The position numbers and the translations under genes are program-made. From Dipteronia dyeriana (lineage: Eukaryota > Streptophyta > Magnoliopsida > Sapindales > Sapindaceae): DNA of 64,000 nt. Below the pieces are notes generated by a model. That model worked only from the letters and a program-made list of their open reading frames with translations, did no database searches and was not told the DNA's origin. The stretch is from positions 63,919,687 to 63,983,686 of the forward strand of contig CM065295.1 of assembly GCA_032871835.1 (NCBI GenBank), given 5' to 3'. This document shows, in pieces, positions 3,476 through 62,735 of this stretch (position 1 is the first letter of the stretch; each line of letters begins with the position of its first letter).

Positions 3476-3539
3476 TTAATCATGATTAATCCACAATTAT
3501 TATAAAAACTACCTATCTAATTACTTCTAGACACATATC

Positions 3540-5713: not shown

Positions 5714-6143
5714 GTAAGGTGCACATGTGAGTTAGCTTTAAAATTAGTGTCAAGTTGTTAAGAAATTGAGCTAGCAAGCTTTGTTTCTCTATAACTTGAC
5801 ATGAACATAGCTATCTCATATATTTGTTATGATAGTCGAAATCTATTAATTAACTTTATGAGAAGTTCAATTTTATATGTGTTTGAGTTGAGATGTTAAG
5901 TTTTTATTCTCTTGGGATGACACACCAACAACTTATTGTCATGAGGATAAACAAGCCAAGGGAGCTCATAAAAAGAGCGAAGACTTTACACTACATCAAC
6001 TCATTATTTGCACTACATCATGTAACATGTCATATTAGAGAACTAAGTACAGTGTTCGTATGGTTCTCATTGACATTTTCTTTCTAAAGATTACTTAGTG
6101 ATGTTGTTCACAAAGTTCTTGAACAGGATGTGTGAATTGTTTG
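5714..6143. other. No gene seen; likely interior of the plus-strand LTR element
   Basis: AT-rich sequence with no convincing coding signal. Both target-site duplications on its flanks (TRIM on the left, LINE on the right) show that it belonged to the host sequence into which those elements jumped. Confidence 0.5.

Positions 6144-20635: not shown

Positions 20636-20664
<29 letters not shown>
20636..20664 (+). repeat. Pure C29 homopolymer
   Basis: Twenty-nine consecutive C residues in otherwise AT-rich sequence, at the place where copia LTRs often have a short C tract before CTCTA. It may be a slippage expansion or a consensus error. Confidence 0.95.
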
Positions 20665-29879: not shown

Positions 29880-31720
29880 CTTTTAGAACTTCAGATTCGT
29901 ATAACGATGATGATGAATTTTAACAAAACTCATGTTATTTTAAGACGTTAGGTACATCTATGAACTAATGATTCATAATTATACACAAGTCTAATAATAA
30001 TTTTCAATTAAAATTATTTTTTCAAGTTTTGATTAGCTCAAAACTTTGAACTTCAGTTTCATTTTCTTTATATATATATTTAGAATTTCAATTCATTATT
30101 AAACTTCAGGTTTATAAATGTAAATTTTATATCTAAAACTTCAAGTTCTAAATAATAGAAATCATGTTCTATTAAATTAAAGGTATTGTTCATGTATGAA
30201 CTTCAGGTTCATAAGTGAACTTTTTTCCTTCAAGATTTTGGATCCTAATTAAATAGCACTTTTTCTTGTTAATTTTCAGATAATTAAAACTAAAGAGTTT
30301 TTGGATTAATACCGTTCATCGGGAATCTGAATTACGGAAGGGAAATCGCCTAGGGTATCACCGGTCGGAAGTCAAACATGAACTCAGAAAGTCTTCTCAT
30401 TTCACGAATATAAATCCCTAAAATATTCTAATAAAGATGTTTTTTTCCACCTCTTCCCCTTATTTTATAGATTCTAGATTTTATGTGTTTTTATCACACA
30501 CATCACACAACACAACAACACACATATTCACTGTCTGTTTCTCTTGGCATCAAACATCCTGCCTTCGACACAACTAAATGAGTTGTTTTTCGACTGTTGT
30601 CAAGCAAGTTACGCACATACTTTTCCTCATAAGTATACACACAATTTGAAGTGCTTATGGTGTTTTAGATGAAAATATACCCATGAAGTTGTGATTTTAA
30701 TTCAAGTTAAAATCATCTTATAATGAGTGTCATATGCCAACGTCTGTTTTAGGACTCAAAGCTTCAGGTTTTGATATAACTGAGATTTAAATCTCTATCG
30801 ATTAGATTCAGAATTTCAAGTTCTTATTATATTGAAATTTTATGTTTAATTCTAAACTTCGGGTTCAGATTTAAATTTATTTAAAAAATATTGAATCATT
30901 TGCCATGCTTGATTCATATCTTATAATCAAATTAAATTAGAATCGAGAACATCAAGCTCTAATTAATTAAATTGGAATCGAGAACTTCATGTTCTGAGTA
31001 ATTATATGGGAATTCAGAACTTCGGGTTCTGATTAATTATATTGGAATAGAAAACCTTGGATTCTGATTAATTATATTTGAAATACCGAACCTCGGGTTT
31101 CGATTAATTAAATTGGAATACAGAACTTCGGATTCTGATCGATTAACTTGGAATCTAAAAAAGGTTTTGATTGATTAAATTGAAATTTAGAACTTCAGGT
31201 TCTGATTCAATTAATTTTCAAAATATTGGATCAATAAGTATGCTTGCAGAACTTGAGGTTCTGATTAAAATTGGGATCCATATATATCTAGAACTTTATG
31301 TTCTGATTGAATTGGAGTACAGAACTTCGGGTTCTGATGGAATTGGAATTCAGAACTTCAATTTCTGATTAATTAAATTGGATTCTAGAACTTTAGGTTC
31401 ATTTTAAATTAGAATACGAAACTTCTGGTCCTGATTAAATTGGAATATAGAACTTTTGGTTTTGTTTTTCAATCAAGAACTTTTGGTTCTAATTTTTTTT
31501 TAATCAAAAACTTCTGATTTTTTTTCCAAATCAAGAACTTCTAATTCTGATGTTTATCGAATACAAAACTTCTAGTTCTGATTTTTTTTTCAAATAAATA
31601 ACTTCTTGTTCTGATTTTTTTTGAATCAAGAACTTCTGATTCTGATTTTAAAAAAAAATTAAAAACTTTCGGTTCTGATATTTTTTTTTTTTTTTACATT
31701 TACAAACTTCAGACTAAATA
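29880..31720 (-). repeat. Long diverged minisatellite, GAACTTC-GGTTCTGATT units
   Basis: Dozens of imperfect units of about 35-45 bp built on GAACTTC, GGTTCTGATT and a spacer of AATTAAATTGGAAT or T-rich sequence. Regularity is highest at 30950-31680. In the orientation of the copia relic they lie in the leader between primer site and gag. Short ORFs across it, such as 31171-31368, are repeat translations. Confidence 0.85.
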
Positions 31721-39159: not shown

Positions 39160-40555
39160 AAAACGAGTTTGTTTTTTACACTCCTTAGCCTGTTACTTTT
39201 CTAAAATACATCAAATTGATCCCTTCGATCCTAATTTTAATGGATAAATGTGATAGAAAATACAAAATGATCATTTTACCCTTTATATTTAATTATTGAA
39301 TGAGAATGATATTTTTACCCTGCAACCTTTTACAATTTGATAACTATATAAACAAAACAAAGAAATTGCTTAATTGAGAGCAGTAGTATCACCGAAAGAA
39401 TTACAAGCAATTTTCATACAAAGCCCACTCATTAGAGCTCAAGTTTCACAAATAGAAACTCAAATAATATTACTATTTCAAGAAAATCACACAAACCCCA
39501 TCTCAAGAACTAACTATTGGATTGCAATAATCTAACAACAAACAAAGAAAAAAAAACCCACTTCAAAATTGAAGATAAATTGAACCAGCATCGATTCCCA
39601 AACTAAAAACTCACTTCAAAAGTTCAAATACACAAACCCTAGATGATCCAGATCAAAAAATAGACTCAAAACCAAAAAAAATAATACCAGAAACCAACGA
39701 AAAAGGAAAGAAAAAAAACTATGATATCAAAGCAGCATAAAGTGAAAGCACCTGTAAGCCTATGTTTCAGTTGAAGAGAGAGACATATAAAAGAGAGACA
39801 AAGAAGACACCGTTGGGTTTCTTACAGGTGACGTGAAGAGATTTTAAGAAGCCGCCGCTGGGTTTCGTTGGAGAGAGACGAAAAAGAAATGTTGGAGTGA
39901 GACGGAATGGGTTAGTCAAATGTTAAAGGAGACAAAATCGATTTCTGGGTTGAACACACAGAGAGAATATCTTATTTTGAAATTTTAGAAAGACAAAACT
40001 GAGGGTTTCGGTACTCATGAGAGAGGGAAAATTTGGGTGAAGTAAAGAGAAAAGTGGAGCGTATATTTGTCGGTTCAAGTCTAAAAATGATAAATATAAT
40101 AAAAAATAAGTTATTGGCTAAAAACAATAAACCAATAAACTTTTGAATCATTTCTTGTAATTCCCTCTAAATAAAATAGGATAATGTTTCAGGGCCAAAA
40201 TATTGACCCACTGATTGAATCGTGACATTTTTTCTTTTTCTTTTTACATTTTTTTTCTTTACATTCTTTATAAATTGGACCACGTGTTACAATTCAATTG
40301 GTGGAGTCAGTATTAGTCAGCACCTAAACATAATCTAATAAAATATTATTATTTTTACATGTGGCATTCTTTATGTTTAAAGATATAAATGCCCTTGCAA
40401 CTATTAAGTTATACTAACGGTTAAATAAAAGATAGACCGATTTGATATATTTTAAAAAGTAAAGAATCAAGTGATGTAAAAAAATAAACTTGTTTAAAAA
40501 ATTGATCATTCACCAAACCTTAAGGACTAAATTGATAATACCTCGATTTTTAATT
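39160..40555. mobile_element. Decayed long-TIR element (MULE-like)
   Basis: TACTTTTCTAAAATACATCAAATTGATC at about 39195-39222 matches, inverted, the segment at about 40435-40470. Similarity continues outward through GAGTTTGTTTTTTACA (39168) and its inverted partner near 40490. The outer left end is lost. The interior (39360-40070) is A-rich, then GA-rich leader-like sequence. Confidence 0.5.
40085..40167 (-). repeat. Relic TIR of the Ulp1-carrying MULE family
   Basis: The minus strand reads GAATTACAAGAAATGATTC and then TTATTGTTTTTAGCCA, with the same order and spacing as both ends of the unit at 44916-54683 (GAATTGCAGGAAATGATCAC, TTATTGTTTTTAGTCA). Adjoining sequence is GA/CT-rich, like the leader inside those TIRs. 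It marks an earlier insertion of the same family. Confidence 0.65.
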
Positions 40556-44476: not shown

Positions 44477-44849
44477 TAGGAATGACAAAGGGCCGGGTTC
44501 AGACGGGTTTGGTAAAATCTAAACCCAAACCCGCGACAATTTGTGTCATCCAAACCCGCACGCGAACCCACGAAAATAAATGGGTTCGGGTTTTAACCAC
44601 GGGTTTGGAGGAAACCCAAACCCGCGCCACGAACCCATGAAACAAGCAGGTCCAGGGGTCAAACCCATGAACCCGTGAACCCACCAATTTTTTTTTTTAG
44701 AAAAATATTTTTATATTATTTAAATATATGAAAATTGTAATTTTAAAGACTATAAACATTTAATATAATGAAAATTTTAACTCATTTCAAATATATTTCT
44801 TAGTTCAAACAAGAGTCATAGGAGGCAAAAACACACACACACACACACT

Positions 44850-44915
<66 letters not shown>
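44477..44915 (+). mobile_element. hAT-like element, left half
   Basis: Starts TAGGAATGACAAAGGGC and is rich in GGGTTTGGGTT / AACCCAAACCC motifs (44490-44690). This is a familiar pattern for one group of plant non-autonomous hAT-like elements. It runs into a CA/TA microsatellite where the first Ulp1 MULE has inserted; matching sequence resumes at 54684. Confidence 0.55.
44857..44915. repeat. (TA)n microsatellite at the MULE insertion point
   Basis: TA run immediately outside the left TIR. A matching TA run (54684-54717) lies outside the right TIR. The insertion went into a TA repeat, so the 9-bp duplication cannot be told from the repeat. Confidence 0.8.
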
Positions 44916-44917
<2 letters not shown>

Positions 44918-45110
44918 TGAATTCATAAGTAACCTAAAAATTTATTGAGTTATTGTTTTTAGCCACAACTATATTTTTTATTGTTTTTATCAATATTGAC
45001 CACTTTTGGACATTATTACCCTTAGATTTGAAATGGATGGTGAAAAATACAATTCCAAAATTTTAACTTTTCTTATATCAAGTAAAAAACATTAGGGTTA
45101 CATGAAGTAA
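44916..45110 (+). repeat. Left TIR of unit 1
   Basis: Pairs with 54555-54683 on the other strand. The best conserved core, ATTGAGTTATTGTTTTTAG, is identical in both. Beyond it both sides share an A/T-rich block and then GAGAGA-rich leader. Confidence 0.75.
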
Positions 45111-45679
45111 AAAAACGAAAGTGAGAGAAAGAGAGAGAAAAAGAGAGAAAGGTATTCTCGCCGTCGCTATTATTGTCGTTCTCTGTCGCCATCGTTGTCT
45201 GTCGCATTTGTCATTACTGTCGGTCCCAGTAGCTGTCGTGTGTCACTGTCGGTGCCGCTCCTCGTCGTTGTGGCTCCCTCGCGTCGTCTTCCTAAGTTTT
45301 TTCTTTATCTGACCAGTTTCTTAAAATCCGAAACGTGAATCTTATTCTTCTTCGTCATTGCAATCTTCTTCTTCAACTCGCCAGGTTCTCGCCTGAGGTA
45401 ATTTTTGTGTGTTTTTATCTTCAGTTTTTATCGATTCCAATAGTCTGGAATTTGTTCATTTGAGAAATTTTGGTACTTATAAATTAAAATGAATTAATGG
45501 AGAGTTGATGATGATTGATACTTACAGTTTTGAAACTATAATTTTTATACGTGTTTTTTGGGTGATTTTGATTTTGATTTTGAACAAAGAAATTTTGAAT
45601 TTTAGGTCAATTGCGATGCTTGGTGTGGTTTGACCCGAAATTGTGTATCAAATTTGTATGTCACTTTTTTCCAATGCTT

Positions 45680-45736
<57 letters not shown>

Positions 45737-45856
45737 TGTTCAACTTCAAAATACATAGATTACTGTTATGATTAGAATAATACAAAAACAAAAACCAAGC
45801 AATTCATAATTATATAATAAATTATAATGTAATTTTTTATTTTTGTGCTTTTGTAG
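45111..45856 (+). promoter_or_regulatory. Leader and leader intron of the unit 1 protease gene
   Basis: A GAGAGAAA-rich stretch (45121-45153) and a GTCG-rich block (45160-45290) precede a likely splice donor GAGGTAATTT at 45396. The intron (to 45856) contains a (TA)n run at 45682-45731. Its acceptor TTTTGTAG ends exactly one base before the ATG at 45857. Confidence 0.5.
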
Positions 45857-46635
45857 ATGGAGAATATGAATTTTGAGGATTTCCTGATTAAACCTAGGAA
45901 TTTTTGGTTAAAAAAATCCACCACAAATTTGTACAGCAGTTTGAATGGGCTGCCGAAGATTGTTAAGGTTCTTAAACAAGTAAAACAATTGGGTGCGTTA
46001 CGGAAGACATGTTTCGGGCACCTACTTGCCATCCCGAAAGAGGTGACTTTTTCGGCTGGCGTAATGCATAACTTGATGTTGAGGCAGATATGTATTCCTG
46101 GAGTGACCCATAAGGATGAATTCCATTTCTTGGTAGGTAGTAAAGTGGCAAAATTCACGAAAAGAGAATTTTGTTTGGTCATAGACCTAAAATTTGGGGT
46201 GATGTCTGACATTTTTTTTGAAAACTTATCATGTCATTTCCGGTGGGAACCACGATAGATATTTCAGGGGGGGGGGGGGGGATGAGAATCTACAACTGAA
46301 ACATGTATGAGAAAAGTTTATGGGTGGTCAATTTGAACAACTAAAGGATTGTTTGAAGATGGCCCTGGTATTGATTGCCAATAATGTTTTGTTTGGACAA
46401 GATTTGAGGAGGAAAGTGTAATTATGGTTGTTTGCATTAGTGGAGGATCTAGAATCCTTCGATTCTTTTCCATGGGGAAGTTATGTGTATATGATGACAA
46501 TACACTACCTACGCCAAGGTTTCCGGTCTGCAAATGCATCAAGGAAGGTCGTCGCACACTATAACTTATACGGCTTCCCTTGGGCATTATCGGTGAGGTT
46601 TCAAATCTTATTGATGCATGTAACTTCATTATTAA

Positions 46636-47062
46636 CTAACATGTAACTTCATTTTGCACTGGCATGTAACTTGTAGCATTTAACATTACTGGAGTTGTGC
46701 ATTATATTAGTCTTCCAAATGTTGTGATTAAATGAACTAGCATGTAACTTCAATTTCAAATAGCATTTAACTTCATCCTAAACTAGCATGTAACTTCTAA
46801 CATGTAACATTACTGGAATTGTGCCTTAGATTAGTCTTCCAAATTTTGTCAACTAATGAACTAGCATGTAACATTGTTTTCAACTAGCATGTACTTTCAT
46901 TCTGAACTGGCATGTAACTTGTAGCATGTAACCTTACTAGAATTGTGCATTAGATTAGTCTTCCAAAATTTATGATTAAATAAACTAGCATGTAACTTTG
47001 TTTTAAACTAACATGTAACTTTATTCTGAACTGACATGTAACTTGTAGAATGTAACATTACT
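46636..47062 (+). repeat. CATGTAAC minisatellite, intron 1 of the unit 1 protease gene
   Basis: Units of about 20-25 bp starting CATGTAACTT, arranged in a higher-order repeat of about 137 bp that also holds ACATTACTGGA and TTAGTCTTCCAAA; three copies are visible. Confined to the intron. Confidence 0.92.
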
Positions 47063-47439
47063 GGAACTTGTGTAGTTAAATTGTTAAAAATTTGTGAAAT
47101 GTCAGTTCTGGACGATGGAAGCCTGTAGCTCATTAGTTCAATTGGCGTTTGAAGATCTGGAGGATTTTTAAGAGGCCTCACAATTTCTTTGCCAAATTTG
47201 CAAAGTATGAACAAGAAGTAAAGGAGGGAAAGGTATGTTTTTTTCTTTCCTAACCTAAAATTAAGTTTTCTTTATATTAGTACTTAAAAAATCATGACAC
47301 TTCTGTTAACTATATAGCATGTTGTGTTGGAGGTATTAAATCCAACTGGCGATGAGAAGATACAACCTTACTTGGTTGGTGTGGACACGGATTTATCTGA
47401 GGGTCCACAGTTTGTTCCACTCAATTATGATGATGGTGA

Positions 47440-47525
47440 GCAACAACCTAATGATGATGGTAATGATAATGATGCTGATGTTGATGTTGATGTTGATGAT
47501 GATGATGATGCTAATGATGGAGGTC
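47440..47525 (+). repeat. GAT-rich coding repeat
   Basis: GATGAT/GATGTT units encode the Asp/Val-rich acidic stretch of the protease linker. Coding repeats of this kind are prone to slippage. Confidence 0.7.
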
Positions 47526-47893
47526 AATCATGACCTAAACAGATGAAGAGGAAGATGTCTCCTCAGATAGAAAAAAAGGAGGAAGGACAAAAAGGATGCG
47601 TACATCTCGAGTCATGTCACCGGTAATTTGATTACTAGACGATAAAATCATTTCGTTAAGTAAACTAGAATTTGATACAGAAGCTCTTTTTCTTTGTACA
47701 CTTTAGGTGGGTGATGACTCGACGGACTCTTCGAGAACAATAAGGGAAGAAATGAATGCAATGTCAAAGCGCTGAAGAAGACATTATGAAGAAAGAGATA
47801 TAGAAGAAGGTTTCGGCAATGGAGAGGCACCTAAACAAAAGGCTTGATCGGGTGGACAAAAGGCTGGATGATCTTGTTCAGCCACGTCATCAG

Positions 47894-48150
47894 GTAACTT
47901 CAACTTACTGGCATGTAACTTGGTTTTCAATTCTCTTCCTTGGTTTTGTACTAGCATGTAACTTGGTTTTGTACTAACATGTAACTTGGTTTCTACTAGC
48001 ATGTAACTTGGTTTTGTACTAGGATGTACCTTGGTTTTGTACTAGCATGTAACTTGGTTTTCTACTGGCATGTAACTTGGTTTGAACTAGCATGTAACTT
48101 GGTTTGAACTAGCATGTAACTTGATTTTACTGACATGCAACTTCAATTTA
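47894..48150 (+). repeat. CATGTAAC minisatellite, intron 4
   Basis: About ten units of CATGTAACTTGGTTT with variable ACTAG/ACTGG linkers. The intron's own splice donor (CAGGTAACTT at 47891) has the same GTAACTT core as the repeat. Confidence 0.9.
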
Positions 48151-49344
48151 TGATATTTTTTTTTAAAAAAAAACACAGACTACCCCTGATTGGATGCCTC
48201 ATTCTGAGCCACATATGTTTGAACCTAACTACTCAATGCCAGTTCATCAACATTTTGAATCACGTAGAGCAGAGGATTCTCACGAAGTGCAAAGGGAAAA
48301 CGTTGGCAGTTATAATGCTGAGGGTAAAGGTAGCCATGGTGGGGGGGGGGGGGGGGTGATGCATCTCTTGTAATGGTGGTTTTTGGGTCGGATCATGCCC
48401 GAGAAAAGGGAATTGTTGGAGATGATGAAACCGATGGTGAGGTCCTTGAGCATTTGGTCCAAAACATTTTGGCCTAAGAGGGATTAAAGGTGCAGACCCC
48501 TTCCCCGTTGGTAGTTGACAGAAAAGTAGGGGATGCAACTACGCTAGAGTGCCTGGCTGTGCAGAATGAGCGGGAGCAGCGGTTGAAGATTAAGTCTCGC
48601 TATATGACTTCACCATACATTGAACCATTACAAGCGGCTGCGAGAGAGAAAAAAAAATTGAAAGCAAAGTATGCACGTTTTAAGAAAAGCAACACAGTGA
48701 CATTGTAAGATTTTGTAACATGTTCGTTGTTCCTTATTTTTGTAAAATATATTGTTATTAGTAACTTGTAAGTGAAATATTTCTACTTTTCTTCATAGGT
48801 TGAACGTCGGATCCGATTACTTCTCAACTAAGGAATTCTTTATCGAGTTGGAATCTACAACCTGTTGGTTATCCAATGAGGTTGGTTACAATTGCTAATT
48901 TATATAAATATTGATGTAGCATATTGAAAAAATCTCAATTTAATTTTACTTCATTTTGAACTAGCATATTGAAGCATATATGAGTCTACTATGTAAGCAA
49001 GGACAACTGAAACCAGAAGATTACAAATCAGATGTTGCTGTGCTATGTTCGAATTTCTTTGTAAGAAAACCTTCTTTCTTTTATAAATGTTTGGATGACA
49101 TAAATACGTACATATATTCCTAACAAACTTATACTTTGTAGGCAAAGTTATCAGAGGAATGGAAAAAATTCCAACCGTCGGAGGATGCACCATTGAGTTG
49201 TGAATTTGATGCACTAAAATATAAATGTCCAACGGATTGGATATTGTATGCTGCTGGAGACAAACCTTGGTGGGGAACTGCTTGGTCCACTGTTAAACAT
49301 GTAAATAAGGTTACTCATCTTTGAAAACCAGATATGGTTTTGTA

Positions 49345-49450
49345 CTAGAATGTAACAATGTTTTGAACTAGCATGTAACTTAGTTTTGTACTAGCATGTA
49401 ACATTGTTTCGTACTAGCATGTAACTTGAACTTTCTGTCATGTAACGTAC
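49345..49450 (+). repeat. CATGTAAC minisatellite, intron 8
   Basis: Four to five units between the exon ending at 49300 and the catalytic exon at 49493. Confidence 0.88.
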
Positions 49451-49914
49451 TGTTGAAGTTACTAATCGTAATTTGTTACTTCTTTTATTCAGTTGTTGGT
49501 GCCATGTGTTGTTGGTGATCCAACAGGACATTGGATATTGTGTGATGTTGATTTGGAAAAATGCAATGTCTGTATTTATGATCCATTGTACAAGACAACC
49601 AATATTCAGAAACGTGTGAAGCAGATCACCCCACTCTTGTGTTTAATTCTAGCAATTTTGCAAGCATCCGGATTTTTTGATAAAAGAGGCATAACACCTG
49701 ATGGGATGATGTTTGTTGTTGAACAATAAATTCCGAAGAAGCAACTAGCACAACTAGACAGCGATAGTTGTGGTGTCTTAACATGCCGATACGTAAACAT
49801 GTTGATGTGTCATAAATATTTTTGGGGATGGGGAACCAAAAACATCCCCGTCTTTAGAGAGGAAATGGCACTAGAAATTTATGCTAACAGTGTACCGGCA
49901 GATTCATAGGTTTC

Positions 49915-50880
49915 TTGACTTGACGATGTACACTACTGGAACTGTACGATTGAATTTGTACTGGAGTCCCATTTTGAAATGAATTTGTTAATGTAACTTC
50001 ATGTTTTTGCACTAGCATGTAACTTCATTTTGAACTAGCATGTAACATCATTTTGAACTGGCATGTAACTTCTAACATGTAACATTACTGGAGTATTCTG
50101 AAATGAAATTATTTATGGCCAATGATGTAACTTGGTTTTGCACTAGCATGTAACTTCATTTTGAACTGGCATGCAACATCTAACATGTAACATTACTGGA
50201 GTATTCTGAAATGAAATTATTTATGAATTATCATGTAACTTCATTTTCAACTAGCATGTAACTTCATTTTGAACTGGCATGTAACTTCTAACATGTAACA
50301 TTGCTGGAGTCTTCTGAAATGAAATTATCTATGAACTATCATGTAACTTCATTTTCAACTAGCATGTAATTTCATTTTGAACTGGCATGTAACTTCTAAT
50401 ATGCAACATTACTGGAGTATTCTAAAATGAAATTATCTATGAACTATCATGTAACTTCATTTTCAACTAGCATGTACCTTCATTTTGAACTGGCATGTAA
50501 CTTCATTTTCAACTAGTATGTAACTTCATTTTCAACTGGCATGTAACATCTAACATGTAACATTACTGGAGAATTCTGAAATGAAATTATCTATGAACTA
50601 TCATGTAACTTCATTTTCAACTAGCATGTAACTTCATTTTGAACTGACATGTAACTTCTAACATGTAACATTACTGGAGTATTCTGAAATGAAATTATTT
50701 ATGAACTATCATGTAACTTCATTTTCAACTAGCATGTAACTTCATTTTCAACTAGCATGTAACTTCATTTTCAACTGACATGTAACTTCTAACATGTAAC
50801 ATTACGGGAGTATTCTGAAATGAAATTATTTATGAACTATCATGTAACTTCTTACATGTAACATTACTGGAGTCATTGTA
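49915..50880 (+). repeat. CATGTAAC minisatellite between the two convergent genes
   Basis: The largest block. Basic units of about 22-25 bp are grouped in a higher-order unit of about 125-150 bp (ACATTACTGGAGTATTCTGA, AAATTATTTATGAACTAT and several CATGTAACTTCATTTT), repeated about seven times. It starts right after the protease stop codon and ends where the transposase ORF ends. Confidence 0.93.
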
Positions 50881-53622
50881 ATTCAACTATCAAATTCAAT
50901 AAGAGCTTCATAAAGTCTACATCACTGATACAGTAAAATCTAGGATGTACCAACTTCTTATTGTGCCAATGGACATTTTTGTGAATTGTGACCTTCATCT
51001 CCACACTTCCTGCATCTGTAAGGTCTACGTGGTGCTTCGATGTTGCGGATGTTATAGATGATGTGGATGGGCATGGTGGAGGAGCCTGACAATGCTGTGC
51101 ATTCCTGTAATTCTGTCGGTTGTGACCTGATTTTTTACAAATCGTACAATTTCTGGTCTTTCCATTACCATTTTCTTCGACAGATTTAAATATCTTCTTT
51201 CTTGGTCTTCCAACTTGCGCCAAAAAGGAGGCAGAAGAACAACCTTTGATCTCACATTTTCAAGAAAATTCCAATTACTAGGATGCCCAACATTGAAAAT
51301 GGTCTCTGCATATGCTTCAACCCAACTTGTGGTTTTGTAGCAATTCCCACAATAATCGGGTAAAGGTTTCTTTGCATACCAAAGGAAACAATTATGAGTA
51401 ATTAATTGAATCAAATAGGTAAGAAGACAAATTACAATGGAATAAGAGGATATTAACCTTATTACAGATAATGCATGTCGACATGGGAGTTTATCAACTT
51501 CAAATTTCGCACAGCTACAAGTCTTTTCATAAAGGTTTACCAAACCATCTTTATTTCCATTCTTAACATTGAAGTAAATAAAATCAATTGGACGAACCGT
51601 ATACTTTTCTGAATCAATGTTTCTTTCTTTTATTAATTCAGTGGCCCATGGAGTCAATTGTGTCCGAGTTTTTTCAGCCTTGGTCCGACGCTTATAAAAC
51701 CATTTCTGGAGCATATCTCTAATAAACTCAATCATGGTTGTTATTGGCATTTGACGAGCATGTACCAAACATGAATTCATCGACTCGGCAATGCTTGAGG
51801 TCATCAACCTATAACGCCTAACAGGAGAGTAAGCACGAGACCACCTTTCGGGACAAACATTCATTAATTCTTCGAATGCTACCCTATTAACCTTCATCAT
51901 CTCCAATATCATTTCCTTGAATTCAGATTTTCGGTATGCCTTCCATGCTTGTTTGAAAAGAAGGCTCACATCTTTCCTTTTGTAATCTTTTTTTATGTTT
52001 TGAGCCATGTGAAACACACAATATCCATGTGGTACGTTAGGGTACACTTTCTCCATTGCAACCTTGATACCGAGGTAGCGGTCGAATATGATCATACAAT
52101 CCTCAGGAATACCAATAGCATTTTTAAGCTCATTCAAAAACCATGTCCATGACATTTCATCTTCAACGTCGCCAAAGCCATATGCCAAAGGAAAAATCTG
52201 GTTGTTTGCATCCAAACATATAGCTACAAAAATAATACCAAAAAATTTACCTTTTAAATGAGTACCGTCAATGGCAATAACTGGTCGAATCACGGTACGA
52301 AATCCATGAAGTGATGCGGTATGAGCGATGAACATATATTCAAACTGACTTGCAACATTTGTTTTCAACGCCGTAATAGTCCCTAGATTTACTTCTTCCA
52401 AACGATGACAGTAAGCAGACAACAGCTTGAATGATTCTTCGGGATGACCAAAAACAGATGCCTCTGCATTATCCTTTGCTCTCCAAGCCTTTGAATACAA
52501 CAAATGTAGTCCATGTTCCACTTGCATTTCGACCATGATATCTTTGGGTTTTAGAGAGTGTCAGTGTACTTGCAACTTTGGTGCTAATAGTTCACCAACA
52601 GTCCATGAATTTGCTTGTCGAAGACGTGCGTGGAAACCATCGATATTGCACGTATGATCATTTACGAACATTCGAACCACCCAATATTCTCCTTTTTGTA
52701 TCTTAATTCCACGTAAATGGAAATCACACTCCCCATCCTTAGATTCAGCCTCATAACGTGTCTTGCTAGACCATCTAATCCGTACTTCAAATCCCTCATT
52801 CAATGCATACATATTCAAAGTTCCCTTCAGATCTTTCTTGCATTGAAATATTCTACCCTTGTATAATCGGCCATCATTTGAACAAGCTTCCTTCACGCTA
52901 ATGGGTTCAAAAGAATACCTTTCTGCTCCAGGAATAACCCAAGCTCGTGGGGAATCATGTTCAGAAGTTTGATCAACATCGTCACCCAAACCATCCTCTC
53001 GAAAGGAAACACCATTAAATGTAGCAAAACCCCGATGGACCAGCACATCCATGCCCTCCAACCTTCCAGAACCACAACCCACTTCATCATGCCAATATTC
53101 ATCATCGTGACTACCTCTGCCAACGTTGGGTATCGAGCTATCATCACTGTTATCGAAGTCCGGCCACTGATTGTTCTCTTCATCGTCAATGGATTCATCG
53201 TTACATACACTTGGGTCTACAATTGGAATAGACCCATATTTTGCCAGTTGCCGAAGAAACCTGCCATACACGGGTTGTGAAGTAGGTAGGTTACATAGGT
53301 TGTCATCTTGCATACAATCTGTTGTTTCCTTTGCAAAAACAGAGACAAAAACCTCAGGTAATAGCTTATCTACATTCATCATACATGACACGTCATTGTC
53401 ATTCTCAATTCTTGGACGAGCAGTACCACTAATTGTAAATGCCAAGGGCCATAATTGTAAGTTGTACCTAGCAACATCAACTTTGACAACATCTTCTACC
53501 AACTTCACCAAGCCATCATAACTTACACATCTAGGAACATTGACCCACGTTGTCATACCACCCTCATAACAATTACCCATCCAACTTCTACCATGATGGA
53601 TGGCCAATTTCGTTTCATCCAT
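50873..53622 (-). pseudogene. MURA (MuDR-type) transposase, nearly intact, unit 1
   Basis: The reading frame runs from 53622 (MDETKLAIHH) to about 51220 with one stop, a TGA at 52561-52563. An upstream in-frame Met (53664) lies in the leader intron, because acceptor TTGTAG sits 4 bases before 53622. Domains: MuDR DNA-binding region (FQCKKDLKGTLNMYAL, VRMFVNDHTC), MULE DDE core (AIDGTHLKG, IFDRYLG, SIAESMN), SWIM zinc finger (CSCAKFEVDKLPCRH) and, after a frameshift near 51220, a C-terminal CCHC knuckle missing its last Cys (CTICKKSGHNRQNY). About 27 extra residues just after the SWIM His (LISSYSIVICLLTYL) look like an unspliced intron. It would catalyse cut-and-paste transposition. Full length would be about 900 aa. 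Confidence 0.9.
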
Positions 53623-53659
53623 ATTCCTACAAGTCAAGTAATTGACATTAAAAGTATTT

Positions 53660-54110
53660 GACATGTAACTTTAAAATGAATTTACATGTAAAAAAATAGG
53701 ACTTGGATGGAATGTAACTTCACAAATCACTTGGCATGTAACTTCATAAATAACAGACCGTGTAACTTCATAAATAACCAAGCATGTGACTTAAAAAATA
53801 ACCTAGCATGTAACTTAAAAATTAACCTAGCAAGTAACTTCAAAAATAACCTAGTATATAACTTCATAAATAACCTACCATGTAACTTAATAATTAACTT
53901 AGCATGTAACTTCAAAAATAACTTAGCATGTAACTTCATAAATAACTTAGCATGTAACTTGGGTACAAAAAATAACCTAGCATGTAACTTTAAAAAATAC
54001 TGTCATGTAACATTAAATTGAATTGGCATGTAACATGTTGTTGAACTGGCATGTAACGTTAAATTGAAGTGGCATGTAACAATTAAATGGCCTATCATGT
54101 AACCTGAGAA
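53660..54110 (+). repeat. CATGTAAC minisatellite in the transposase leader intron
   Basis: About 18 units of CATGTAACTTCATAAATAAC or CATGTAACTTAAAAAATAAC type. It has the same plus-strand orientation as the other arrays although the gene here is on minus. The plus ORF at 53707-54021 is just repeat translation. Confidence 0.9.
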
Positions 54111-54680
54111 CAAAAATTGACAGTCCATGGGTTTCACTCAAAATCTAAACCATTCTATTTTTCTTCAAATTAAACTTGTTCATTCTTGTAAAAAATAAGT
54201 AGGAAAGGGATACATACCTTCAACTACTTTGACAAAGAGTTGAATGCTAGGTTTCAAATCTGGATCTACCTGAAAAGAGGAAGACCCATAAGTTTTAGAC
54301 CTGATTTGCAACCTCGGTTTTCAGAGAGATGAAGCTCGATTTTTCAGAGTGAGAGAACACGATTTGAGAGAGAAGAAGCAAAAGAGAACATGGTTTCAGA
54401 GAGAAAAAGCAAATCGGTTTTCAGAGAGATCACGGTTTGAGAGAGAAGAAGCAAAACAATTAGAGAACAAACAGAGAGAGCGAGAGAGAGAGAGAGCATG
54501 AGAAATTGAAAAACAAAGAACTGATAAGTGAAAACTTTGGGTGGGAAAATTTGGGACACATAAAACAAAAATGAGGGTATATTTGGAAGTTCATGGTTAA
54601 AGATGATAATTTTAAGCAAAAGTAAAGTTTTGACTAAAAACAATAACTCAATAAAAATTGTGATCATTTCCTGCAATTCG

Positions 54681-54683
<3 letters not shown>
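54111..54683 (-). promoter_or_regulatory. Leader exon and right TIR of unit 1
   Basis: On the minus strand, a CT-rich leader with repeated GAGAGAAGAAGCAAAA motifs (plus strand 54360-54480) ends at a likely donor, GAAGGTATGT (about 54218). The outer part (54555-54683) is the TIR. Confidence 0.5.
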
Positions 54684-54720
<37 letters not shown>

Positions 54721-54938
54721 TTAAGAATTTCAACTTAGAATGAGTGAAATGATTATAATTTATTCTCTATATAGTTAAAGGTGTTTTTTATTGGAGTTTA
54801 GATTTATTATATTTTAAATAATAAATATTATATAATTTTTATTTAAATGGGTTCGCGGATCACCCATGGATTTATTTTCTCAATTCAAACCCACACCCAA
54901 ACCCGTTGGGTTTTTACTATACGTGTTCGCGGGTTCGT
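54684..54938 (+). mobile_element. hAT-like element, right half
   Basis: After a TA run, the AT-rich interior and then AAACCCACACCCAAACCCG / GGGTTCGTGG motifs match in kind the left half at 44477. The expected terminal sequence is replaced by the GATCGAGC array of unit 2. Confidence 0.5.
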
Positions 54939-55745
54939 GGATCGAGCTGTTTTGAAACGGATCGAGCCATTTCAATAGGGTCGAGCTTTTTTTGAATTGG
55001 ATCGAGCCTTTTTGAAAGGGATCGAGCTTTTTTGAAAAGGAATCGAGCTTTTTTGAAAGGGATCGAGCTTTTTAAAAAAGAATTCTAGCTTTTTTCAATA
55101 GGTTCGAGCTTTTTTTGAATTGGATCGAGCGTTTTTGAAAGGGAATGAGCTTTTTTTAAAAGGGCGAGCTTTTCTGAAAGGGATCGAGCTTTTTTGAAAA
55201 GGATTCGAGCTTTTTTCAATAGGTTCGAGCTTTTTTTTTCATTGGATCGAGCTTTTTCATCATGACATCGAGGTTTTTTTAAATAAATATAGCTTTTCTT
55301 ACATAGGATCGAGCTTATTTGTTCATAGGATGGAGCTTTTTTCTAAATTTTCGTGAAATAATTAGGTTTTGGTGGGTCGAGCTTTTTATATATATAAGGG
55401 TTCGAGCGTTTTCTGAATAGGATCAAGCTTTATTGAAAGGGATCGAGCTTTTTTTACATCGGATAGAGCTTTTTTTTACATATGATCAAGTTGTTTTTAC
55501 ATATGATCGAGCTATTTTGTTATGGGATCGAACATTTTTTCATAGGATCTAGTTTTTTTTTAAAGGCTCGAGATTTTTTATCCTTGGATCGAGCTTTTGT
55601 GTTATGGGATCGAGCATTTTTGTCATAGAATAAAGTTTTTTTGAAAAGGGTCGAGCTTTTTTTGAAAAGGGTCGAGCTTTTTTCTCCTTGGATCGAGACT
55701 TTTTGTTTTAGGAACAAGCTGTTTTGACATTGGATCGAGACTTTT
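54939..55745 (+). repeat. GATCGAGC minisatellite upstream of the unit 2 protease gene
   Basis: About 30 units of GATCGAGCTTTTTTGAAAGG type, 20-27 bp, with variants TTCGAGC, GTCGAGC and AATCGAGC. They lie in the presumed leader intron, which ends at acceptor TTGCAG immediately before the ATG at 55803. Confidence 0.93.
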
Positions 55746-55802
55746 AATCTTGGTTACGAAATTTTTTCTGTTTAATGATGTTGTATTTCTGTTACATTGC
55801 AG

Positions 55803-58800
55803 ATGAGAATTAGGTTGAGGGATTCGCTTGAAACTGCAGAAGGAGACTGGTACGAGGGCAAATTGACTTGACATAACCATTTTGATGCCCTTGGCCATAT
55901 AGACGACGCGTTGAACCGTGTCCATGTAGAATTTACAGATGAAGATCAACGTCGGTTCATGGCGTCATGTTTCGGGCATTTCCTGACGATGCATCGGGAG
56001 ATGAAGTTTTCGGGTGGTATTATCCATCGGTTGCTTTTGAGGGAGCTGCATCATAACGGCCCAACAGATGAGATGCAGTTCATGTTAGGGAACCAGTCGG
56101 TGAGGTTTTCGAAAGTGGAATTTTGACTGATCATCGGACTACGGTTTGGAGTTGTACCAGACACGACCAAGTATGCAGCAGTGGAGAATGGCATACATGA
56201 GCGGTACTTTCCTGGAGCCGATGAGGTTTCGTTGGAGGAGATTAGGGGTGTTGTCAATGGCGTAGAGTTCATAAAGGTGTACGATGCTGTCAAGCTCTGC
56301 CTTTTATATATGCTGAACTGGATACTGATAAGGGTGGATAAGAGAGTCAAGATTCCAATTTGACAGTTTTGGCTGGTTAAGGATCTCGATGCGTTCGACG
56401 CGTTTCCGCGGGGTGCCCACTTGTACAGGCATTCTATTTACTCATTCAAGCATGCGCTTGATGGGCGACGAGACGGGTTCGAGCGACACCAGCAGGAAAA
56501 GGGCGCTGACGTACACAGAGTGGAGACCTACAACATATACGCTCTATCTCATGCTCTATTAGTAAGAACTTCGAACTACAAATTGTACTTTATTGTTGGT
56601 GTCCAAATATTATGGATACTTATCATACTTATCTTTGATGCAGATATTTGCTTTGGAGGTGATCCATGATTTGGCCAAAGAGGTCGGTGCCCGGAGGGTT
56701 ACTGATCTGACTCCCCGTATTTTGAAGTAGGAGTTGACCAAATAACCGAGAAGGACGAAGCTGGCAAAGATTTTCAAAGCCAGGGTATGTATTTGTTTTG
56801 TTAATGTTTTTATTAGTTAGTATTTGTACAATTACATTGTTCTAACTAATATTTTAGATGTTTATGAGGAAAGAACTGGTGCCGACACCAGCTGAGAGAT
56901 AGGCACCGTACTATGCCTGGCTAGACGAGAGGGGGGGAGCCTGTATGTAGAAGATTACATGGATGATATGCCACCTCCGGTCCCTGATCAGACTACCTTA
57001 GGCGGGATCAGTGGTACGGAGGGTGGGGGTTTAACAGACAGGACCATTGACAGTGTTGGATCTGAGCCCGTTGCTGAGGGTTTAAGGTCCAGTGACTGTG
57101 AGGGATATGAGACAGACCCTCAACGAGAAAGGCATAGGCAGAGGCGGGTTCGGTTTTCCACCCCTGGACATGGTACATCTGCAGAGGATTCCCGTGGGGG
57201 CGTTGGACGTGATGGAGAGGTAAGTTGAAAACAAAGTTGAGTGTTTTTTATTAACACGTGGTGATAGTTTTTTACTAACAATATAGACATGATTTCAATC
57301 TCCGTGGGCAAATATGTTGAACGATGTGTGTGAAGCCCTCCAGAAGAGTGATGAGGATCGACAACGTCAACACTTGGAGTTATTGGATATGATCCGAAAG
57401 AGTGATGAGGATCGTCAACAAGAACACCGATTGTTACTGGATATGATCCTAGGGCTTCAAGGGTCGACCATGCGTACACACCGGGATTCCTCATGATCTA
57501 GACTTTAGTCCCAAAGGGTCGACTGATAGGTATACGGGGGAGGGGGGGGGGGGGGACAGACATGTCAGCTCGATGTAGTCAGGACCCGTCTACCGGGGGG
57601 TAGGTCCGGAGTGGCAACTTCAGTCGCATACCAGCGATAGTAGGCTTGGTTCACGTACAGCAGTCGGGTCGGACCTCCCAACTGTCCTCTCTGGGTCCAC
57701 CCAGGCTCAGCAGTCCCCCCACCTCCTAGCACATCGATTCAGCCATAGTGCCCCTCCCCCACCTAGTATGTCTGTGGCGTTGGAGCGGTCCCTTTCGCCA
57801 CCCAGCACGACTGTGGCGTCGGAGCGGTCCCCTCCCCCAGCCATTACTTCAAAACGTTTAGTTAAGCACATATGGCAATTGATGAGCCCTTACATAGATC
57901 CATGCCGTCCAAAGAGGTTGAGGACACGACCCGAGTCCGTGGAACACATTTTTGACCCCCACGGACTAGTGGACGCTGACCAGCTTGCTGCATACAAAGC
58001 CTTCAAGAGGAACATCAACGGGGAACTGTGAGTCCAACTTTTTATAATAAAAATGGTTGTACATTTAATGTTTATTCAAATTTACGGAAAGCTAAGCTAA
58101 TTCAATCATTAAACAGACGTGATGTGGACGTTCTGGCACCAGTAGATACGGGATGGTTCGTGCGTATGCAGTCCAACTTTATGGACTTGGAGAACACGGT
58201 ACGTACTTACGTGATTTTCATATTAACGTTTGTATAAGTAATGTTGTATTGTTAACAATTACGGTGGTTTTATTATTTGTTAGCATATTGACGCATACCT
58301 CCATATTCTTTGCAAGCGTCAGCGAGGATTCCCCAATGTGTACAACCAGAGGATCAACGTGTTGGATACACAATTTTATGTAAGTAGTTATAAATTTTTG
58401 GAATCGAATCGTATTTTCTGGTTTTGTATTATTAATACGATATTGTCAATGCTTGTGCAGCCACTTATGTTATACATATGGAAGAGGATGATGCCTCATG
58501 ATTCGCACGGGGCTGTGACCACGACAAGGTGGAATGTGTTACAGTCTCGATGGTTGGAAGAGGACCTTCTGATAGTCCGTAGAGCAACCACGAGTGGAAA
58601 CCGCCCATGGCACGAGGTTGACCTGGTAAGTGTTAAATGATGGAGATGATTTAAAAAATAAACTGTTCATATATCCTGACCTAACACGGTATGCATACTA
58701 TTACAGGTGCTGATTCCGTGCAACGTTGGGGCCAACCTTGGCTGGTGGTGACCGTCGACCTTAGTCTCGGGAAGATTGACATTTTTGACCCCTGGAGACA

Positions 58801-59205
58801 GGAAGTCCCTTATCATATTAGGCACCAACAGGTCCGACCATTACGGTGGTTTTTACCCTCTATGTTGAGTGACGCGGGGTTCCACACTGCACGATGAGGT
58901 GGTCGTCGGGCGTTCCCTAGGGAAAATAAGCCCTTCTCGGTCAGGCTGGTGCCTACTTCTACAGTCCCCCAATAAAAAAAATCGTAAGACATTCTATTTC
59001 ATTCACGTGCTTAGATATTCTTTATGAAGGATTTCTAATGGTGTTTTATATGTCGAATTACAGAGGTAACTGTGGTCCCCATACTTTGAGACTTATCGAG
59101 TACTTACTGGCGGGTCGAAGGCCTTTTGATTGGTCAGAGGACGACATGAGGATCATTCGGGAGAAAATGGCTGTAGAGATTTTTTGTAACTCCAGGCCCG
59201 CCTAG
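55803..59205 (+). pseudogene. DUF1985 plus Ulp1-type cysteine protease gene, nine exons, unit 2
   Basis: Likely exons 55803-56561, 56644-56784, 56858-57219, 57287-58027, 58127-58198, 58284-58379, 58462-58625, 58707-58983 and 59064-59205. DUF1985 shows FGHFLTMHRE, HRLLLREL, QSVRFSKVEF, GLRFGV and LVKDLDAFDAFPRGAHLY. Exon 4 begins with a repeated heptad-like segment (KSDEDRQ twice, 57340-57420). The protease core has DIFDPW and, in the last exon, GNCGPHTL with Cys at 59071-59073. The catalytic His codon has lost one base (58737-58738), shifting the frame. Stops occur in exon 1 (about 55868, 56126, 56363), a TGA at 58895-58897 and a TAA at 58973; a G14 tract lies at 57542-57555. Clearly inactive. 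Confidence 0.8.
57330..57440 (+). repeat. Coding tandem repeat in unit 2 protease linker
   Basis: AAGAGTGATGAGGATCG and the following CAACA-rich stretch occur twice, giving KSDEDRQ-x-(E/Q)H-x-x-LLDMI repeats. The heptad spacing suggests a coiled coil. Confidence 0.7.
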
Positions 59206-59386
59206 TGATTGATTGTATATTACCATTTTTTATGTACAAAGACATGTAATTAATTCATGAATATTAATTCATTCATTATTCATTCATTAATATTAATTCA
59301 TTCATTAATAAGTAATTATTGCAATTCCAAATTATTACAATCTGATACAATTCCAAATGTTTACAATGTGATCAAAACTTTGTCAT

Positions 59387-62170
59387 TCATTCCTTATTAG
59401 AGTCAATATTAGGGCACGTTTGTTTGTTGTGTCCAATTGAATGACAGATGCTACACTTGCGGCGGTATTCATCGGGAACACCTCTGCTTGTACCTTCATT
59501 AATCATAGGTGGATTAGAAAATCTCCTGGAATTATGCTCTGGTTGTCCACATCTTCTACAGGATTGTGTAGTTGTCCTCTCCGAAGACGAGACATGGCGA
59601 CCCGCCCTCGGGTGTCCTGCTTGTCTCCTGGAGTTTGGATTCAAAATCACAATTTGAGCAATGTCAGATGGCACAACCCAAGTGGAAGGATAACCCACCG
59701 ACACAATAGGAACCAAGTACGCGTCAATAAGTGTCTGTTTCTTGTAGTAATCCGAACACAAAGTTGTCAAGTCCAAGTTTCACTCCCTGTAAAAAACATT
59801 GAAAACGATCAGATTCACGTTTCAGTAATAATCACCTCACAGCACAACTTGAAAGTAATGTACCGTGCCGCCGTAAGGGCGTGAGAACATGGAAAATGAT
59901 CCATTTGAAATTTGTTGCAAGTACAAGTCTTCTGGGCTAAGTCAACAGTCTAATGTTTTCCAGACCGTTTGATCGAGAAAATGTTCCAGTCTACTGGATT
60001 TACGGTTAAAAAACCACATTTACGGTTAAAAAACCACACTTCTCCACACGTTTTAATAGCACAAGATGTGTTGCATCGATCAACTGATGACGTATGGTTT
60101 GTGCAGCTCTATAGCGACCGTAAAACCACCGTTGCAGCATATTCCTAATGAACTCAGCCAGAGTCAACATAAGCAGCTGTCATGCAAATTTTAGGCATGA
60201 GTTTATGCATTTTGCACCATTTGTCGTCATCACCATGTACCTTCTTTTCGGGCAGTGTACACGGGACCACTTGTGTGGACCGGTATCAATTACATATTCA
60301 TATGCATTCTGGTGCAAGTTTCTTAACTCTTCCATATACCGGTTATATTCAAACTCGGTGTATGAGCGGGCTGCTTTGTCCATTATTGTGGCAACATCCT
60401 TCCTATGCAATCACTTTTTAATATTTTCAGCAAAGTGCCAGCAACATATGGTATGAGTGGCATAAGGGAACACTTTAGAAATCCCTGCTTCAATGCTTGC
60501 ATGCCTATCGAAAATGAAAACTAGCTCATCAATATGACCTAGGGCACCCTTCAAGCAATCCAAAAACCATTCCCATGAAAGGTTGTTTTCTGAGTCGCCG
60601 TACCCGAAAGCAATTGGATACACCTGTTCGTTGCCATCTTGGTTGTTGCAACAAACATTGTACCCCAGAATCGTCCCTTCAAATGGGTACCATCAACGGT
60701 AATGACTGGACGCATACACGTCCGAAATCCTCTAAGTGAGGCACCAATCGACATGAAGAAGTATAGAAATTTACCATCTTCGTCGCACTATAAGTCAGTG
60801 ATTGTACCGGGATTTTGTTGTTCCAAAACGTAACTAAATGATTGAAGCAGTTGGAAGGTTTCCTCATGCGTTCCATATGTCAGTGACAACGCATAATCGA
60901 GGGCGGCGTGTGCCTTACTGTACATGACTTAGATTCCATACATTGATTTAATGTCGACGATTATGTCATTCATGCGCATTAGTCGACCATCTTGTTGTTG
61001 TAGTCTAGGTGCAATTACTTCTCTAATTATGACTGCACTAGCTTACCGGTACCGGCGGTGAATTTCCTCTAACGGACAAGTGTTTTTGTTGACAAAACTT
61101 CTTACTTGAAAGTATGTGCCTTCATCTCTCCTTACCGCTCTTAACTTTCATGTACAATTTCCCATCAAACAAACTAGATGTAATTTTGTCTTATTGGACC
61201 TTTTCACCTCCCACTCGAAGTTCTGCTGCATTGCAAAATGGCCTACTAGTCTCTTCAAATCCTTTTTCGTTGGAAAAAATTGCCCTTTATTTATCATGCT
61301 TGTAGGTTCATCTTCAACCAAGTTTCTGCTTCCACCAATACCAAACGAGTATGATTTTGCTTCTGGAATAACCAATGTTGTGGCATTATCAGAATCATCT
61401 GGAGTTACATTAGCCCTCCCCTCGGAGGTCCCAACTATATCTGGTGCACTGGAACTAAATCTGTGTACATGTCTTACTCGTCTTTCCATTTCGACAGGTT
61501 TATCATCATCCTGATTGTCCTTTACATTTTCTACAGAATTGAAATTGCTCTCATTATCCACCTCATGATTCACCCCAACATTCAGTTTTGTATTCTGCTC
61601 ATTGTTGATGTCATTGTAGATCTCATTGTATTGGTTGTTGTACTGTCTACCATTCATCTCAATTTGACAACCAAATACATCGTCGAATTGAGGTCCCAGT
61701 CTATTATCATGGGCTGCTACTTCCGGTGGAACATCACATATGTTTTCCCGACCATCAATCCCACTTCTTTCTGTGAACAACTGGTTGCTTCCGCCTGACG
61801 ATCGAATTTGTTGGGTGTTATCACGATTAGGGATATCTTCACCAATGACACCTCCTGCTAGCATCTCGATTAGACTAACACATACTTGAGGGATCACCCT
61901 ATCTTCCCTTAGCATAAACTGAACATCATCATTGTTTCTTATAAATGTACGACATGTAGTCCCATGAACAATTGATAGAGACTATAGATCATCACAATAT
62001 TTGTTCTCATCAAACTTCACAATGGTTTGCACGATCGACACTAGTTTGTTGTAACTCAAATTCTTTGACACAAACAAACCTTGGTTATCGGAACTTATAT
62101 ACCTCTGATTTCCGTCCGATAATTGCTCCCATCCACCGTTGTAAGATATGACTATTCTCACCCTATCCAT
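59387..62170 (-). pseudogene. MURA transposase, decayed, unit 2
   Basis: Likely start MDRVRIVISYNGG at 62170, with acceptor TTTTGACAG 4 bases upstream. The frame runs to 61148 with one stop near 61983, giving an acidic/Asn-rich linker and the start of the MuDR domain (FFPTKKDLKRLVGHF). After a frameshift the DDE core follows in pieces (TVDGTHLKGRF, IFDRHASI, CCWHFAENIKK, 60180-60760), then SWIM (CTCNKFQMDHFPCSH, about 59890-59935), an intron (about 59787-59863) and two CCHC knuckles. One knuckle is damaged (CRRCGQPEHNSRRF), one intact (CSICHSIGHNKQTC, near 59450). The intron just after the SWIM His matches the position of the extra segment in unit 1. Inactive. Confidence 0.85.
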
Positions 62171-62291
62171 TGTCCTGTCAAAACCATCATGAAAAACCAT
62201 TATTAAGAAATAAATATTTAATATTAAATTTACAATTATAAAGGATTAAACAAAAATCAAAAGTGTAAGAGATGAAACTTTTTTTTTAACT

Positions 62292-62735
62292 GATCGAGCT
62301 TTTTTCGTACATGATCGAGCCGTTTTTGTACATGATCTAGCTTTTTCTAACGGGATCGAGTTTTTTTTGTTCAAGACTGAGCTCTATTTGTACATCATCG
62401 AGCTTTTTTTAATATGGCTCAAGCTTTTTTCAAATATGGCTCGACCTTTTTATTTTAGGGATCGAGTTTTTTTGTGAGGAATCGAGTTTTTTTGTGAGGA
62501 ATCGAGCTTTTTTGTGAGGAATCGAGCTTTTTTTGTGCGGTATCGAACTATGTTTGTGAGGGATCAAGCTATTATTGTGAGGGATCGAACTTTTTTTGTC
62601 AAGGATCGAGCTTTTTTTTAGGGATCGAGTCTTTTTTCGAGGGATCGAGCTTTTTTTTACGTATCCAGTATTTATTTTTTGGATCGAGCTTTTTTAGAGT
62701 TTGATCGAGCTTTTTTTAAATGTTTTCCAGCTTTT
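62292..62735 (+). repeat. GATCGAGC minisatellite in the transposase leader intron of unit 2
   Basis: About 20 units of GATCGAGCTTTTTT with variable spacers such as TGTGAGG and TGTACAT, in the same plus-strand orientation as the array at 54939. Splice donor on minus near 62958 (GAAGGTAAAT) and acceptor at 62175 bracket it. Confidence 0.92.

Follow-up and report, generated by a model that had tools for sequence, protein, structure and literature searches.

A 64,000-nucleotide stretch of Dipteronia dyeriana DNA (contig CM065295.1, positions 63,919,687 to 63,983,686 of the forward strand; hereafter the window) includes two adjacent Mutator-like elements (MULEs), named unit 1 and unit 2, that harbor tandem arrays of two different short motifs, CATGTAAC and GATCGAGC, respectively. 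With a probability of about 0.82, we interpret both units as VANDAL-like MULEs with a VANC-type anti-silencing system, the arrays being its predicted targets. This interpretation is proposed because the anatomy of the units parallels that of the published system: a MULE transposase, a DUF1985 gene, and a similar placement of the motif arrays. The features established from the sequence are arrays that are private to their elements, confined to non-coding DNA and built on a conserved core, genes of the DUF1985/Ulp1 type, and the presence of arrays in copies in which no genes were detected.

Private arrays in the window

The arrays in the window were checked using Tandem Repeats Finder and exact pattern counts. 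The motif CATGTAAC is found 67 times, as compared with 2.4 expected copies, and 64 of these are located within unit 1 (46617-54103), all on the plus strand and grouped in five blocks; the other three are strays (6019+, 32605-, 45097-). The motif GATCGAGC is found 19 times against an expectation of 0.38, with all 19 copies in unit 2, on the plus strand, in two blocks. A preliminary description of this DNA, made from its letters alone, had proposed that unit 1 includes arrays at five separate non-coding sites and that neither unit shares the arrays of the other, and the counts agree with both proposals. The start that it gave for the first array, 46636, is about 20 bases too late. The blocks, placed in introns by means of splice sites picked by eye, are the following.

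46616..47072, plus strand, CATGTAAC array in intron 1: 12 exact cores, 23-bp unit inside a 124-bp higher-order unit
47898..48143, plus strand, CATGTAAC array in intron 4: 8 exact cores
49337..49446, plus strand, CATGTAAC array in intron 8: 4 exact cores
49991..50873, plus strand, CATGTAAC array in the gap between both genes: 27 exact cores, 108-bp higher-order unit
53648..54103, plus strand, CATGTAAC array in the transposase leader intron, antisense to the transposase: 13 exact cores, 24- and 23-bp units
54939..55745, plus strand, GATCGAGC array at the left site of unit 2: 13 exact cores, 20-21-bp unit
62278..62725, plus strand, GATCGAGC array at the right site of unit 2, transposase leader intron: 6 exact cores, donor and acceptor by eye

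By this inspection three of the unit 1 blocks are in introns of the plus-strand gene, one is intergenic, and one is in an intron that precedes the transposase start. The arrays of unit 2 had been assigned to both of its leader introns; the assignment stands for the right array, while for the left one the block ends ahead of an acceptor and inspection by eye identified no donor, because the left end of unit 2, which abuts unit 1, was not located.

The by-eye donors of two array introns, at 47894 and 49299, resemble parts of the motif (CAG-GTAACTTC and ACAT-GTAAATAAG), and the arrays may have arisen from, or furnished, splice donors.

Repeat class and transposase clade

Counts were done on the whole 914-Mb genome, and the individual places that were listed are roughly the first 100, at the start of contig C1. 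Tandem pairs of CATGTAAC at 23-bp spacing were found 5,838 times (reversed control, 0), pairs of GATCGAGC 11,876 times (reversed control, 0), and pairs of GTGTTTAATT, the motif of a third class described below, 7,133 times (control, 27); the three counts use different spacing ranges and are not comparable with one another.

The first 100 CATGTAAC places listed form seven clusters, A to G, each on a single strand (strand counts: A 0/50, B 105/1, C 41/1, D 1/40, E 1/28, F 0/37, G 43/0). After masking of the arrays, all seven share the end regions of unit 1. They can be read as eight elements with both ends each, cluster A consisting of two, one of them with a long insertion, and the left end of cluster F being seen only through its match to cluster D. 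The strand of the array tracks the orientation of the element in all cases among these clusters. A nearly full transposase is present only in B; A, E and F include N-terminal fragments. In C, D and G neither the transposase nor DUF1985 was matched at E 1e-5, yet these clusters retain both ends together with 40-43 motifs on one strand. The first 100 GATCGAGC places listed form 26 clusters, none of mixed strand. Among these places, neighboring clusters separated by 2-9.5 kb have the same strand in 9 of 9 cases, and the three unit-2-like transposase matches listed in that range, from a search with at least 150 matches, are all located beside GATCGAGC arrays in the expected relative orientation. 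The unit-2-like element L052 carries 34 copies of GATCGAGC on a single strand.

A search with the transposase produced at least 95 matches; 85 of 10,712 candidates were scored, and six elements were then picked for diversity. Two of these, with transposases 67% and 75% identical to that of unit 1, include CATGTAAC (40 and 8 copies, on one strand). The other four, with transposases 53-60% identical to that of unit 1, define a third class with arrays of GTGTTTAATT at a 23-24-bp period, located at left, middle, and right sites, the right one inverted. In all, each class is represented by a small number of elements: four CATGTAAC elements with transposase plus seven others, two GATCGAGC elements plus one partial, and four GTGTTTAATT elements. 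On the transposase tree the three repeat classes are split with support values of 1.000, 1.000, and 0.999, and in all 10 elements with a readable transposase the repeat type matches the clade, apart from single stray copies. The expectation of one private repeat per subfamily thus holds in 10 of 10 elements, the third clade having GTGTTTAATT.

Mixed pairs, defined as two different motifs within 38 bp in one order and one strand relation, were found genome-wide 53 times for CATGTAAC-GATCGAGC (control, 2) and 2 (control, 1) and 0 (control, 0) times for the other combinations. In the clusters examined and in these counts we saw neither arrays common outside MULEs nor free mixing between subfamilies, the two observations that had been named in advance as contrary to privacy. 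Of the CATGTAAC-GATCGAGC pairs, 50 have a span of exactly 35 bases, e.g. G000:C1:6924830-6924864, as if a fixed junction had been copied.

A motif that tracks the transposase clade could also be one that the transposase itself recognizes. Elements of the En/Spm type have transposase-binding, subterminal repeats, and in all three classes described here arrays are present near both ends. That the arrays are repeats of this kind, rather than targets of a DUF1985 protein, is nevertheless extremely improbable: those of unit 1 are found deep inside the element, in introns and in the gap. Furthermore, in the published system it is VANC that reads such arrays, and the sequence-specific loss of methylation does not require the transposase gene (PMC5735166).

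Exon sparing

The claim that the arrays spare exons was examined in nine elements using blocks conserved between classes at the protein level (tblastx), with element borders set by hand; the element L050 (8 motifs) and the non-autonomous clusters were left out of this test as well as of the spacer and core tests described below. Only 9 of 406 exact motifs are in conserved coding blocks, as compared with 166 expected by length, and the claim is borne out. Within the window the numbers are 0 of 65 for unit 1 (27.5 expected) and 0 of 19 for unit 2 (6.3 expected).

Inheritance of the arrays and conservation of the core

The presence of one repeat at several sites of a single element had been taken to imply copying within the element, by gene conversion or template switching. 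A total of 157 spacers from unit 1, B, and L049, 54 of them from one array of B, were compared, with array borders set by hand. Mean identity is 0.744 between spacers from the same site of different elements and 0.555 when different sites within one element are compared. For 105 spacers the closest one belongs to the same site of another element and for 15 to another site of their own element, with 37 ties, a result indicating that arrays are passed on site by site and change locally. Continued copying within an element was therefore rejected, and as an explanation of how the repeat spreads over the sites we consider it very unlikely. What speaks in its favor is that a spacer type is common to intron 1 and the gap (0.75 in unit 1) and another to introns 4 and 8 (0.65), types that recur in all elements possessing those sites. 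Because of this sharing, an old seeding between sites, before these elements split, is likely.

Wrap-around alignment of 27 hand-chosen arrays with hand-set borders (B intron 8, L048 left, and L051 mid arrays being left out) showed that the core is better conserved than the spacer in every one of them. The weighted means for core and spacer are 0.873 vs 0.727, 0.885 vs 0.781, and 0.905 vs 0.775. A stronger point than this comparison is that one core is kept across sites with differing spacers.

These data also bear on the possibility that the arrays are neutral minisatellites that arose a single time in each family's ancestor and were carried along, with no reader protein, those arising in exons being lethal to the genes. 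The inheritance of arrays site by site across elements agrees with such an origin, no function is required to explain exon sparing, and tandem arrays grow unaided. On the other hand, the same core has been kept at five sites whose spacers, for most pairs of site types, are 0.41-0.67 identical, the core exceeds the spacer in every array compared, gene-free copies retain their arrays, and three sister families have the same arrangement with a different motif each. We consider neutrality unlikely.

Borders and genes of the two units

The features of the two units, both of which are decayed copies, are as follows.

44845..54721, strand not assigned, unit 1, VANDAL-like MULE: borders approximate
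45857..49906, plus strand, unit 1 VANC-like gene, broken copy: DUF1985 at start, Ulp1-like end (tblastn)
51052..53670, minus strand, unit 1 transposase (vanA-like): two reading frames, 51052-52560 and 52561-53670
55803..58972, plus strand, unit 2 VANC-like gene, broken copy: DUF1985 55803-56669, Ulp1-like piece 58730-58972
59854..62242, minus strand, unit 2 transposase (vanA-like), broken copy: tblastn with the L052 transposase

The termini of unit 1 carry 62-nt inverted repeats that are imperfect (77%; 44941-45002 / 54594-54655), and there are AT-rich arms at 44845-44882 and 54684-54721; both end regions are aligned by relatives elsewhere in the genome. VANDAL elements are expected to have degenerate terminal inverted repeats and a 9-bp target duplication; no target-site duplication of at least 8 bases was found around the guessed ends, which lie inside AT repeats. 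A 143-base stretch at 40025-40167 is 75.5% identical to the end region on the right of unit 1 and is perhaps a piece of a relative.

The unit 1 frame 51052-52560 includes the Pfam domains PF10551 (MULE, E 5e-20) and PF04434 (SWIM, E 2e-8), both of which were also found in L051 and L052. The named proteins that match the unit 1 transposase best come from Dipteronia. The transposase of L052 matches unit 2 with 82-84% identity in the pieces 62242-60638, 60683-60012, and 60024-59863 (tblastn).

As judged from its sequence, the second gene is of the DUF1985/Ulp1 type. The DUF1985 domain PF09331 was detected in unit 2 (E 6e-15) and above cut-off in L046, L051, and L052, and below cut-off in a piece of L048; the Ulp1 peptidase domain PF02902 was detected in L046 (4096-4527, E 6e-17). 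In tblastn comparisons the DUF1985 exon of L046 matches unit 1 at 46224-46595 (52%) and 45839-46213 (34%), E 1e-46, and its Ulp1 exon matches unit 1 at 49493-49906 (44%, E 1e-31) and, weakly, unit 2 (34%, E 2e-6). An AlphaFold model of the L046 DUF1985 exon had a mean predicted local distance difference test (pLDDT) score of 47, too low for a fold search. The DUF1985 gene of L052 includes an in-frame 39-bp tandem repeat of 8.4 copies (5723-6049; reversed strand 3153-3479). In the DUF1985 gene of unit 2 there is an in-frame 54-bp tandem repeat of 2 copies (window 57344-57449). Runs of 14-16 G are located at 46267-46281, 48341-48356, and 57542-57555, in or beside DUF1985-gene exons of both units.

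Comparison with known anti-silencing systems

The preliminary description knew of no mechanism that would account for such repeats; it is known, however, that in the VANDAL MULEs of Arabidopsis family-private motifs are targeted by VANC proteins, which bind the tandem motifs of their own family and take off methylation (PMC5735166, PMC10398659). VANC21 binds YAGTATTAY and VANC6 acts on AGTTGTMC; within their own family the motifs form dense tandem repeats in non-coding DNA, in introns as well as in intergenic and upstream parts; the repeats evolve together within a site, and related families have different motifs (PMC5735166). In addition to DUF1985, VANC proteins include variable regions in which peptide motifs are repeated in tandem (PMC5735166). 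The same non-coding regions are targets of RNA-directed DNA methylation (PMC10398659). In a review (PMC13317346), VANC genes carrying Ulp1, those of the KIU (Kaonashi) MULEs, are described as using their own motifs in non-coding DNA, and their Ulp1 domain as strongly conserved in eudicots.

The elements analyzed here resemble VANDAL21 (Hiun)/VANC21 and VANDAL6/VANC6 in being MULEs with a transposase gene and a DUF1985 gene, and in having private dense arrays in introns, intergenic and upstream DNA, with relatives that have other motifs. The 39-bp repeat of L052 and the 54-bp repeat of unit 2 resemble the variable tandem peptide regions of VANC proteins. The elements differ from the two Arabidopsis systems in the motifs, CATGTAAC, GATCGAGC, and GTGTTTAATT rather than YAGTATTAY and AGTTGTMC, in the Ulp1-type end of the second gene, and in their Sapindaceae host. 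The combination of a DUF1985-type gene with an Ulp1 domain in a MULE is shared with KIU (Kaonashi), as the latter is described in that review (PMC13317346). While the motifs of VANDAL21 are arrayed one way, the third class has an inverted right array, so that its terminal arrays face each other; this layout is not described in the papers considered here, and the partly inverted class can be considered a small novelty.

The kind of system is already known from Arabidopsis, and what is new are the members described here and the presence of at least three repeat families in the genome. No publication about these Dipteronia repeats was listed in literature searches, which did not use the motif sequences as terms. 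The spread of anti-silencing systems beyond Arabidopsis has probably been described already: a 2022 article by Sasaki et al. in EMBO J reportedly deals, by its title, with such systems across eudicots, and is said to report a helical periodicity of motif spacing.

Several observations weigh against a VANC-type reading. The Pfam search of the unit 1 pieces gave no DUF1985 or Ulp1 match, so that the assignment of its second gene comes from tblastn. Of the 9 motifs in tblastx blocks, 8 are in element B and 1 is in L049; some of these blocks overlap arrays and may be spurious. The comparison of core with spacer is partly circular, as the core was picked for being frequent. The right array of the third class is inverted with respect to the other two, each single array being internally of one orientation, and vector strength at 10.5 bp is 0.71 for GATCGAGC, 0.23 for CATGTAAC, and 0.13 for GTGTTTAATT.

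Two general rules were tried and rejected. A single motif orientation holds in CATGTAAC and GATCGAGC elements and fails for the right array of the third class; strict 10.5-bp phasing of the motif spacing fits one class only. The CpG ratio of the two GATCGAGC arrays (1.57 and 1.50, vs 0.84 and 0.76 for coding DNA) is of little informative value because the core itself has CG.

Possible mechanism and significance

Extrapolating from Arabidopsis as regards binding, demethylation, and co-evolution, the VANC-type system would operate as follows. The DUF1985/Ulp1 protein of each family would bind its own 8-10 bp motif, CATGTAAC, GATCGAGC, or GTGTTTAATT, which would have been multiplied in arrays of a period of about 21-24 bp wherever they are tolerated, i.e. 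in introns, in the intergenic gap, and ahead of the transposase gene. The bound protein would clear methylation from the DNA of the whole element in cis; non-autonomous copies with only ends and arrays would be demethylated too. Arrays would expand and contract locally via slippage or unequal exchange, while selection would maintain a readable core and clear arrays from exons. A joint drift of motif and protein would then generate private repeats.

The chances appear about even that this one tree genome includes at least three mutually private anti-silencing systems, each with a DUF1985/Ulp1 protein and an 8-10 bp word repeated in arrays phased at 21-24 bp, one class having its terminal arrays face to face; the three sister proteins and their words would constitute a natural residue-to-word key. 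If so, the anti-silencing arms race of the Arabidopsis type also takes place in Sapindaceae, where three specificities coexist and target arrays number in the thousands, and the genome would supply the related proteins with different target words that are needed to learn how DUF1985 proteins choose DNA and lift methylation. As a practical rule, an unexplained private minisatellite across the non-coding parts of a MULE would point to a VANC-type gene in the same element.

Other features of the window

A separate tandem array is located at 30930-31649. Its unit is 31-35 bp long, and its near-palindromic core resembles AGAACTTC-GGTTCTGATT; neither the transposase nor DUF1985 gave a match near it. 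The array may be one more private repeat, or else satellite DNA of another kind. At 20636-20664 there is a run of 29 C. The segment 63663-63995 is a 77.5% match to the sequence that directly precedes the GATCGAGC array in a unit-2-like element of cluster A, and thus another element of the unit 2 class may begin there and run off the window.

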